Shown in pieces: positions 11,872-15,176 of a stretch of DNA of 33,985 nucleotides. Made by a program: the position numbers and the translations under genes. Positions within the stretch are counted from its first letter, which is position 1; each line of letters starts with the position of its first letter. The notes under the pieces are model-generated. The model worked only from the letters and a program-made list of their open reading frames with translations. It was not told the origin of the DNA and made no database searches. Location: the NCBI GenBank assembly GCA_003224815.1, contig QHZW01000329.1:1-33985 (forward strand). Direction: 5' to 3'. The stretch comes from Acidobacteriota bacterium (GTDB lineage: Bacteria > Acidobacteriota > Terriglobia > Terriglobales > Acidobacteriaceae).

Positions 11872-12510
11872 TCAGTGCGCGGATGGCTGTCCTACTGAAA
11901 GGTTCTGGAGAAGTTCGCTCACCGTAAATTCCCTCTCGAACTGCACCCGCACGCCAAAGAGCCTCCTGGAATCGGGTTCATATAAAAGCGAATATGGTTC
12001 AGATGTTACTAAGCGGTTCAGAAAGATCCGCATTTCGGAGTCCGCGGCGAGCTGTGTTACCGCGGCATTCGGGGCGAGCAGCCGGTCATTGATGAACAAC
12101 TCAATGTTGCGTCCATCAAATTGAATGGAATTTTCGAGTCGTTTGTCACGTTGTAACGTCTCAAGAGCTTTAAGCGCAGCGCTAACAGCTTGCTCCAGTC
12201 GCAACTGATTGTTGCCATCACCCACAGCCTTGCGGTTGTAACGAAGCCCCAATCGACCATCGGTTAGGTCCAGGCTGTAGTCGGCCTCGTGGCCGATAAG
12301 GATGACGCCTGGACCGTCCTTCACGTGGGCGTAGCTGGCGACATCGAGCAGCAGTTCGTCCGTTGATTGATCCTGAATCCAGCTGTGAAACACGGGGATC
12401 ACCGCATGCAGATCAACGCGCTCGGGAGCTTTCAACAGCAGCTTCACGTTTATGTGCTGCAATTCCACTGCCGCCTCTTCCTCGATCAGTTGAATTCCTC
12501 TGATTGTCAT
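11872..12510 (-). CDS. Conserved-looking protein of unknown function, translationally coupled to the nitrite/sulfite reductase
   Basis: Likely start MTIRGIQLIEEEAAVE at 12510; its ATG overlaps the reductase stop (ATGA, 12507-12510). Confidence 0.7.
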   Translation of the reverse strand: MTIRGIQLIEEEAAVELQHINVKLLLKAPERVDLHAVIPVFHSWIQDQSTDELLLDVASYAHVKDGPGVILIGHEADYSLDLTDGRLGLRYNRKAVGDGNNQLRLEQAVSAALKALETLQRDKRLENSIQFDGRNIELFINDRLLAPNAAVTQLAADSEMRIFLNRLVTSEPYSLLYEPDSRRLFGVRVQFEREFTVSELLQNLSVGQPSAH

Positions 12511-14789
12511 ACCGCCACCAGTTTTCCCAGCTTGCTGTTGCAACTGTGCGCGGCATCAATGAAGAGCTGGGCTTCGTCGATCAGGTACCGGCTTGACTCT
12601 TCTGTGTGAGCCTGATCGCGCTTTTCGTGCGCCGCGAATAAATACTGCGCGAACTTGCCGCCGGCAAATGGATCAAAAAACAGCTGCGTGTCGTAGTACC
12701 GCTTGCGGAACTCGGTAACGATTTCGCTCGCGTCCTCCCGCACGTGCGGATTCTCGGCCTGTACCAGTCCCCGTGCGCCATTCAGCATGGAGTGGTAAGC
12801 AGACCTGCCGGCCCGCTCGAAGTCCCTGCGTTCGAAGGCCAGCTGCGCCTCGAATAATTCCCTCTCTGCGGCCGCTAATCCGAAGTCCACCGCTGAAACC
12901 ACTTCGCCAGCGCACTCGCCATCGCCCAGATCACCGAGCGTGTATTCGCGGGGATCGCCCCAATCGCTGAAGTAGGAACGATCACCCGCAGGCGGCTTGG
13001 CCAAGTCATCGAGCATGGCTTTAAGTGCTGCCTTGCCCGTGCGCTTCACGAATTCCTTGAACGTCTCGCCCGAAATGCGATCCGCTACATATCGCTCGGT
13101 CAACCTCTCGACTACCTTCGGAATATTTTTCGAAGGCACTGCAACAATCGGCAGTCCGTACGAAGCGGCGTTGTTCTCCCACTGTCCGCCGAGCACAACC
13201 TGGAAATGCGGGACTGCATAGCCGCCGATTTTGCGGCTTACGCCGTAGAAGCCCAGATCTGCCACGTGATGTTGCCCGCAGGAGTTGAAGCAGCCGCTGA
13301 TCTTAATATGCAGCTTCTGGACAGCCTCGTCCCTCACGAAACTCTTTTCGCTGACCTTCTTTCGCAATTCCGCAGCCAATCCCCGCGACGACGAGATGCC
13401 CAATTTGCAGGTATCTGTCCCCGGGCAGCTGGTAATGTCAACCAAAGCTCCGGCGCCTGCGTCTCCAAGTCCGATTGCGTGCAGAGCTTTGTAGAGGTCC
13501 GGCAAATCAGCTTTACTTACCCAGCGGATCACAAAGTTCTGTTCGACTGTGGTGCGGATTGTTTCTCTAGTGAACCGACGAACGATATCTGACAGCGAGC
13601 GCAGCTGATTTGATGTAATGTCGCCCAGCGGCAAAGCCACAGTTACAGTCACGTATCCGGGCTGCCGCTGCGGCCGGATATTCGACTTCAACCATTGCTG
13701 GAACTCTGCTCCGGAACCATTTGCATTTCCGATAAGAACCAGCTCAGGAACATCAACCGCCGGCTTCAGTGCACTTTCCTGAAATTCGGCTTTTGCTTCT
13801 TCAATGTAGTCGTTCCATCGCGGATCGAACGGCAGGATCTCCCGCTCCGCCAAAACCAGTTCTCTGAACTTCTCAATTCCAAGATCTTGAATCAGGAACT
13901 TGATACGTGCTCGATTGCGGTTCTTCTTTTCCCCGTGGCGGGCGAAAACGCGCGCAATCGCTTGCGCCAGCGGGAGTAGCTCTTCCGGTGGAACGAACTC
14001 CTGAAATAGTTTGGCCTGATAGGGAACGGCGCCGAGCCCTCCGCCAACATACATCTCGAAACCGTGCTCTTCCCTTCCCGTCGTGGCGTTGACACGTGTC
14101 TTGGCAATGAGTCCGAGATCGTGCAAACCGGTCAAGCCGCACGCATGCTGGGCGCACCCGCTGAATGCCGGCTTGAATTTACGTCCAAAGCTCTGAGCAT
14201 CAGGATGGCCAAGCAAGAACTTCGCCAGGGCACGAGCATAAGGCGTGACGTCGAAAGCTTCATCCGTGCAGACTCCGGCATAAGGGCAGGCAGTTACATT
14301 ACGCACTGAATTGCCGCAGGCTTCACGGGTCGTGATATTCGCAGCCGCCAGCCGGCGCATCAGCGCGCCAGTGTCGTCGATGTGGACGTAATGAAGTTGA
14401 AAATCCTGCCGCGTGGTAATGTGAGCAATTCCGTCGGAATATTCTTCCGCCAACTCGGCCATAACCTCGAGCTGGTGAGCATTTAGACCGCCGGCCGGGA
14501 TCTTGATGCGCTGCATTCCAGGTGCATCCCACAACGTGTTCGGACCTTTGGTCAGATCGCCCGAAGGAAAATTGAGCTTTTGGACTTTATGCCCGTCGTT
14601 ACGCTGACCGTTGTCATAGCGCTGGCCGTATGCGCCCCGGCGCAGGCGCGTCTCGGCGAAGAGACGTTCTTCGAGCTTGCCTTGTTTGCGCAACGTGAGT
14701 TCGGTCTCAAATATGTCGACCTCGCGCGCCAAATGTTCGGGCACTTGTCCGTCGAGTTTTTCTTTCCACAACGAATTAGAAGCTTTCAT
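12507..14789 (-). CDS. Ferredoxin-type nitrite/sulfite reductase with C-terminal HEPN-like extension
   Basis: Siroheme/4Fe-4S motifs TSCPGTDTCKLG and ISGCFNSCGQHHVADLGF; N-terminal TTRQDFQLHYV and NVTACPYAGVC; about 165 aa extension after the reductase domain. Confidence 0.93.
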   Translation of the reverse strand: MKASNSLWKEKLDGQVPEHLAREVDIFETELTLRKQGKLEERLFAETRLRRGAYGQRYDNGQRNDGHKVQKLNFPSGDLTKGPNTLWDAPGMQRIKIPAGGLNAHQLEVMAELAEEYSDGIAHITTRQDFQLHYVHIDDTGALMRRLAAANITTREACGNSVRNVTACPYAGVCTDEAFDVTPYARALAKFLLGHPDAQSFGRKFKPAFSGCAQHACGLTGLHDLGLIAKTRVNATTGREEHGFEMYVGGGLGAVPYQAKLFQEFVPPEELLPLAQAIARVFARHGEKKNRNRARIKFLIQDLGIEKFRELVLAEREILPFDPRWNDYIEEAKAEFQESALKPAVDVPELVLIGNANGSGAEFQQWLKSNIRPQRQPGYVTVTVALPLGDITSNQLRSLSDIVRRFTRETIRTTVEQNFVIRWVSKADLPDLYKALHAIGLGDAGAGALVDITSCPGTDTCKLGISSSRGLAAELRKKVSEKSFVRDEAVQKLHIKISGCFNSCGQHHVADLGFYGVSRKIGGYAVPHFQVVLGGQWENNAASYGLPIVAVPSKNIPKVVERLTERYVADRISGETFKEFVKRTGKAALKAMLDDLAKPPAGDRSYFSDWGDPREYTLGDLGDGECAGEVVSAVDFGLAAAERELFEAQLAFERRDFERAGRSAYHSMLNGARGLVQAENPHVREDASEIVTEFRKRYYDTQLFFDPFAGGKFAQYLFAAHEKRDQAHTEESSRYLIDEAQLFIDAAHSCNSKLGKLVAV

Positions 14790-14796
14790 GATGAAC

Positions 14797-14861
14797 CCCA
14801 GCTTTTAGCTCTTAGCCTTACCTGGTCCGCTTTAGCTAAAAGCTAATGGCTAGAAGCTTGC
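14797..14861. repeat. Heptamer-unit inverted element A
   Basis: Left arm cccagct-tttagct-cttagcc (14797-14817); right arm agctaaa-agctaat-ggctaga-agcttgc (14834-14861); perfect 11-bp IR AGCTTTTAGCT/AGCTAAAAGCT. Confidence 0.75.
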
Positions 14862-14902
14862 AGAAACACAAAACCCACCGGCCAGTCCTTCTGGCGGTGG
14901 GT
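14862..14902 (-). terminator. Intrinsic terminator in the leader of the nitrite/sulfite reductase gene (attenuator terminator)
   Basis: Minus strand ACCCACCG-CCAG-AAGGA-CTGG-C-CGGTGGGT followed by TTTGTGTTTCTG; 12 bp with one bulged base. Confidence 0.8.
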
Positions 14903-14931
14903 GTGAGCTTATGAACTTGAATTATTGCTGT

Positions 14932-15018
14932 TTAGCTCGATTGCACCCCATCCCCAGAAGAGACACGACAGATACAACAACAGCACACAGCCATCTTCTG
15001 GAGGGATGCATAGAGCAT
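14932..15018 (-). CDS. Poly-cysteine leader peptide (28 aa from 15018, or 20 aa from 14994)
   Basis: MLYASLQKMAVCCCCICRVSSGDGVQSS*; Cys codons TGC TGT TGT TGT ATC TGT, 5 of 6 consecutive codons. Confidence 0.7.
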   Translation of the reverse strand: MLYASLQKMAVCCCCICRVSSGDGVQSS

Positions 15019-15176
15019 TGCTTTACCAGTATCTGATGCCGAAGCACCCCGGCGCAATTCAAATATTCGATAGCGCCCTCCTGAAAAACAGATGAGGGGT
15101 GCTACACTGGCTCGCCCCAGGAACAAAGATTCCAAACTCAAGATCTTGGGCACCTTCGCGAAAAGGGAGAGATCCA

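Follow-up and report, generated by a model that had tools for sequence, protein, structure and literature searches.

To understand how the nitrite/sulfite reductase gene at this locus is controlled, the short cysteine-codon ORF in front of it has to be explained. The window, the whole 33,985-nucleotide stretch of DNA that was analysed (contig G000:C5), comes from a MAG of Terriglobia (Acidobacteriota) whose closest relatives with a name are MAGs of gp1 Acidobacteria. The regulated gene lies on the minus strand (12507..14789) and encodes a 760-aa siroheme/4Fe-4S nitrite/sulfite reductase of the NirA/Sir superfamily (NIR_SIR). The original prediction held that a short upstream ORF with a run of Cys codons, three alternative RNA pairings and a terminator hairpin form an independent cysteine attenuator of sulfur assimilation. 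Every one of these elements was found on the minus strand where it had been placed. On the comparative evidence described below, we consider it highly probable that the gene is controlled by trp/his-type transcription attenuation, mediated by ribosomes and specific to cysteine.

The leader ORF (14932..15018, minus strand) encodes MLYASLQKMAVCCCCICRVSSGDGVQSS in 28 codons, from an ATG at 15018 to a TAA at 14932. Its run of regulatory codons, Cys Cys Cys Cys Ile Cys (TGC TGT TGT TGT ATC TGT), occupies 14968..14985. Two start codons had been offered, at 15018 and 14994; the first is likely and the second is not, since most orthologous leaders have an ATG 33 nt upstream of the first Cys codon. An NCBIfam search with the leader peptide matched no known Cys-rich leader family, and an Rfam covariance-model search for riboswitches and leaders matched no family, returning only one sub-threshold chance microRNA hit.

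Upstream of the ORF, a -35-like TTGCGC (15052..15057) and a -10-like GATACT (15028..15033) are present on the minus strand, and the start site would be expected about 7 nt downstream of the latter, 2-3 nt before the leader AUG. The promoter had been called weak, and its -35 box is indeed further from consensus than that of the relatives, most of which have TTGACA in this position. When the best promoter-like pair was chosen without conditioning on start codons, 31 of 39 leaders had an in-frame start 6-15 nt past the -10 box, mostly about 33 nt upstream of the first Cys codon. Transcription usually starts about 7 nt downstream of a -10 box, so this spacing favours the earlier suggestion of a leaderless start, and the leader ORF is probably leaderless or nearly so.

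The leader RNA can pair in three mutually exclusive ways. Segment 1 (CATCCCTCCAGAAGA, 14994..15008) is the partner of segment 2, which consists of antiterminator block a (TCTTCTGGGGATGGGGTG, 14944..14961) and block b (GAGCTAA, 14932..14938), the latter including the leader stop codon. Segment 3 (AGCTCACACCCACCGCCAG, 14891..14909) is both the antiterminator partner and, at 14902-14891, the 5' arm of the terminator. Segment 4 (CTGGCCGGTGGGT, 14873..14885) forms the 3' arm of this hairpin (-20.8 kcal/mol), and the U tract TTTTGTGTTT follows (14864..14873), all on the minus strand. Block b was absent from the original prediction: GAGCU (14938-14934) pairs with AGCUC (14909-14905) and extends 2:3. 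The pairing is retained in 6 members of the window's genus with the leader stop codon in differing frames, and its persistence despite the shifting stop points to a constraint at the RNA level.

The terminator stem in the window is GC-rich with a one-base bulge, and most relatives have a longer U tract. A simple promoter and terminator scan of the window detected neither element; the terminator was probably overlooked because of the bulge. The reductase ATG lies at 14789, about 75 nt past the U tract as predicted. A short inverted repeat of the AGCTAAGAGCTAAAAGCT type (14798-14858) separates the terminator from the reductase start in the window. Locus L031 has a similar repeat, those of L032 and L033 are unrelated, and in other relatives the reductase gene begins directly after the terminator.

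Folding of the 169-nt leader gave -62 kcal/mol compared with -47.9 ± 4.1 kcal/mol for dinucleotide shuffles (z -3.4, 0/200), and the minimum free energy (MFE) structure includes both 1:2 and 3:4. The 1:2 duplex reaches -35.5 kcal/mol, which was equalled by 0/200 shuffles. With a ribosome masked at Cys codons 3-4 of the window leader, 2:3 becomes the MFE structure even with segment 4 present, and with a ribosome masked at the stop codon, the terminator 3:4 forms. Masking at codons 1, 2, 5 and 6 of the Cys run leaves 3:4 as the MFE structure once segment 4 exists, so the model requires that 2:3 forms first, as in trp.

We infer the following sequence of events. Transcription would begin at the leader AUG or immediately upstream of it, with a ribosome loading on the nearly leaderless ORF. 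When Cys-tRNA(Cys) is scarce, the ribosome would stall on the early Cys codons, covering segment 1 and leaving segment 2 free; 2:3 would then form before segment 4 is made, no terminator would arise, and the reductase would be transcribed. When Cys-tRNA is ample, the ribosome would get to the stop codon and cover most of segment 2, allowing 3:4 to terminate transcription. With no translating ribosome, 1:2 would form and 3:4 would again terminate. Counting against this model are the -35 box and U tract of the window, weaker than those of its relatives, and the reductase genes of families f4, f6, f9 and f13, which have no leader.

To assess conservation, sequences upstream of about 100 reductase orthologues were gathered, and the last 300 nt of 94 Terriglobia regions were scanned for ATG-started sORFs containing three or more Cys codons in a stretch of five. 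The conserved Cys-codon ORF expected among orthologous leaders was found in 37 of the 94 regions, where dinucleotide shuffles would give 0.65. The leader occurs in 10/11 regions of the window's family f1, 14/14 of f5, 5/6 of f8, 1/1 each of f2, f3 and f14, and 5/13 of f7 (more under looser criteria); in f4, f6, f9 and f13, none of 47 reductase upstream regions has a Cys leader. The leader peptides are wholly unlike between families (e.g. CSCICICC, CCVCCCA and CCCCCCCM), while the Cys codons persist, numbering 3-9 in 39 orthologous leaders with variable spacing. Downstream, 39 of 41 leaders have a U-tracted hairpin, typically 22-36 nt past the stop codon. In leaders G240, G246 and G272 the ORF stops before segment 2, less of which would then be covered by a ribosome on the stop codon. 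Counts of isolated TGY codons by reading frame were dropped as weak and biased by the choice of frame. Four orthologues with no Cys leader (L034, L035, L038 and L082) share the promoter-like motif GGATTTGTTATTCTTG, or a close variant, just before the start, and another form of control is likely there.

Across the orthologous leaders, the stretch that directly follows the Cys run, segment 2, can base-pair with the 5' terminator arm. Those refuting conditions of the original prediction that sequence can address were passed: a Cys-codon ORF, a terminator and a complementarity of segment 2 with the terminator arm that is specific to each locus are all retained. The core helix of the f5/f7 alignment is 92% paired and nearly invariant, and column covariation in that alignment was low and not above shuffles, with one both-sides change (105/500). 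Since the core was too invariant for column covariation, alignment-free permutation tests were used instead. Segment 2 paired with its own arm at -19.7 kcal/mol compared with -16.8 ± 0.56 kcal/mol for permuted arms (28 loci, 0/20000, relatedness uncorrected), and in 16 divergent loci 9/20000 permutations were as good, again uncorrected for relatedness. An independent set of 33 sites (before cysH, sat, cysD, the other reductase and the peroxiredoxin described below) gave -19.4 versus -15.4 (0/20000, likewise uncorrected); the peroxiredoxin and second-reductase subsets alone were weaker, at 216/20000 and 108/20000. Locus G292 provides a triple covariation, in which 2:3 changes from CG to UA and 3:4 from GC to AU. 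Complementarity specific to each locus and the G292 change favour conserved alternative pairings, and the column test says little either way.

The same arrangement was then sought as a Cys run plus a U tract in 19 genomes, with a reversed pattern as control. The 4.55-Mb genome of the window has exactly two matches, one before the reductase and one before SUMT-cysH, and the reversed pattern had no match in any of the 19 genomes. The second attenuator (L200:5773-5925, on G000:C67) has the leader MRLSQQMRCQCCPCCCTCVHTGAGERLT with 7 Cys codons (MFE -62.4, z -4.2) and a strong terminator, and it precedes an operon of SUMT (siroheme) and cysH, followed by a LysR-type regulator gene. In relatives, Cys-leader attenuators also stand upstream of siroheme dehydrogenase-SUMT-cysH, of sat and of cysD. 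In high-quality genomes from the same family (L288, L290, L292, L299, L300, L303, L305 and L306), they precede another NIR_SIR reductase, about 580 aa long. An unexpected target is a 1-Cys/AhpC-type peroxiredoxin, which has a Cys-run leader in 12 Terriglobia genomes (L264, L265, L268, L270, L274, L276-L281 and L285), with a terminator detectable in most. A phylum-wide search with the same pattern outside the leader-bearing genomes returned mainly AT-rich chance sites, and the controls matched too.

The sites before SUMT-cysH in the window's own genome and before sat and cysD in relatives support cysteine as the likely signal, and together with the conservation of leader and terminator and with the complementarity they support the proposal of an independent cysteine attenuator of sulfur assimilation. 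It is very likely that the reductase attenuator is one member of a sulfur-assimilation attenuator regulon in Terriglobia.

Co-regulation with CysH, sat and siroheme genes also bears on what the reductase reduces. Among solved structures, M. tuberculosis NirA (1zj8) is the closest by sequence; it was deposited under the name nitrite reductase, and the enzyme was reportedly shown to be a sulfite reductase. The window protein is the only NIR_SIR-type match found in the 84%-complete genome. Because of this shared regulation and its being the sole such protein there, it is a probable assimilatory sulfite reductase. Next to it on the minus strand, a partner ORF (11872..12543) has no Pfam family in the window copy. 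An ORF of this size (about 190-220 aa) follows the reductase in the relatives inspected (L032, L033, L035, L037, L040-L043, L047 and L058). The partner ORF is probably in the same operon as the reductase, and it may possibly be an accessory or electron-transfer partner.

Other explanations of the leader were considered. The hairpin could be merely structural if a stalled or terminating ribosome instead altered access to the reductase RBS, in the style of the mycobacterial polycysteine sORFs, which are leaderless and act on translation according to Canestrari 2020 as cited in PMC9031893 and PMC13236596. However, mycobacterial leaders have no conserved terminators and carry their Cys runs near the stop (PMC1262725), whereas here 39 of 41 loci have a U-tracted hairpin, segment 2 is complementary to the terminator arm, and the window reductase begins well past the U tract; we therefore regard such translational attenuation as unlikely. 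It is slightly less likely still that the Cys-rich nascent peptide acts as an arrest peptide sensing a metal, thiol oxidation or another small molecule rather than Cys-tRNA. The same leader type before a 1-Cys peroxiredoxin in many genomes would suit such a sensor, but the residues around the Cys codons are unconserved between families, Cys number (3 to 9) and spacing vary, and only the Cys codons and the RNA complementarity are kept.

Short ORFs and hairpins are common and TGT repeats yield Cys runs, so a Cys-rich ORF might also lie by chance over a factor-independent terminator with no regulatory meaning. Against this stand the excess of leaders over shuffles, the permutation tests, and the restriction of the pattern in the window's own genome to two sites, both before sulfur genes; we give it hardly any credence. 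A chance origin or TGT microsatellite was rejected, as Cys runs with interspersed residues recur at one position and in one frame across families. The predicted transcription attenuator appears to be a real feature of the window, well supported by comparison.

Cysteine attenuation is already known as an idea, and the present leaders can be set beside several systems. The trp and his attenuators of Proteobacteria and some Actinobacteria likewise combine a leader ORF rich in regulatory codons, segments 1-4, an intrinsic terminator and a downstream biosynthetic gene. In the leaders described here, codons for the end product are clustered, an intrinsic terminator stands before the gene (with a weak U tract in the window), the mutually exclusive 1:2, 2:3 and 3:4 are conserved as complementarity, and the genes downstream belong to the cysteine pathway (NIR_SIR reductase, SUMT, CysH, Sat and CysD). 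Unlike trp and his, the amino acid is cysteine, the phylum is Acidobacteriota, the ORF is probably leaderless, and segment 2 lies inside the leader's coding sequence and stop. Cys leaders of Actinobacteria, including mycobacteria, resemble them in Cys-codon runs and downstream sulfur or cysteine genes, and probably in a leaderless start, but their Cys runs lie close to the stop and conserved terminators are absent (Seliverstov 2005, PMC1262725); the present leaders depart from that pattern, having the Cys run mid-ORF and feeding an intrinsic terminator. In Rhodobacterales, uORFC-8-2 is a predicted Cys-codon transcription attenuator with a U-run terminator before cysS (PMC8632094). It belongs to another phylum, with two tandem Cys codons near positions 14-15 upstream of a cysteinyl-tRNA synthetase gene; the present leaders, with 3-9 Cys codons before sulfur-assimilation genes, do not have that arrangement. 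In the open literature searched, we found no acidobacterial attenuator regulon, trp-type layout on sulfur-assimilation genes, leaderless leader feeding a terminator, or peroxiredoxin target.

In summary, these soil Acidobacteria probably switch on sulfur uptake when charged cysteine tRNA becomes scarce for their ribosomes, and the attenuator reading would supply the sensor, the signal and the target set, with some targets in high-quality acidobacterial genomes. It would combine classical attenuation with leaderless leader ORFs, on which ribosomes have to load in step with RNA polymerase from the very start of the transcript. We also lean towards a broader cysteine regulon in Terriglobia, acting through leaderless Cys-codon attenuators on the activation and reduction of sulfate, on siroheme synthesis, on two unlike sulfite/nitrite reductases and on a 1-Cys peroxiredoxin, in which Cys-tRNA charging also sets peroxide defence. 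Such a regulon would tie peroxiredoxin expression to cysteine supply.
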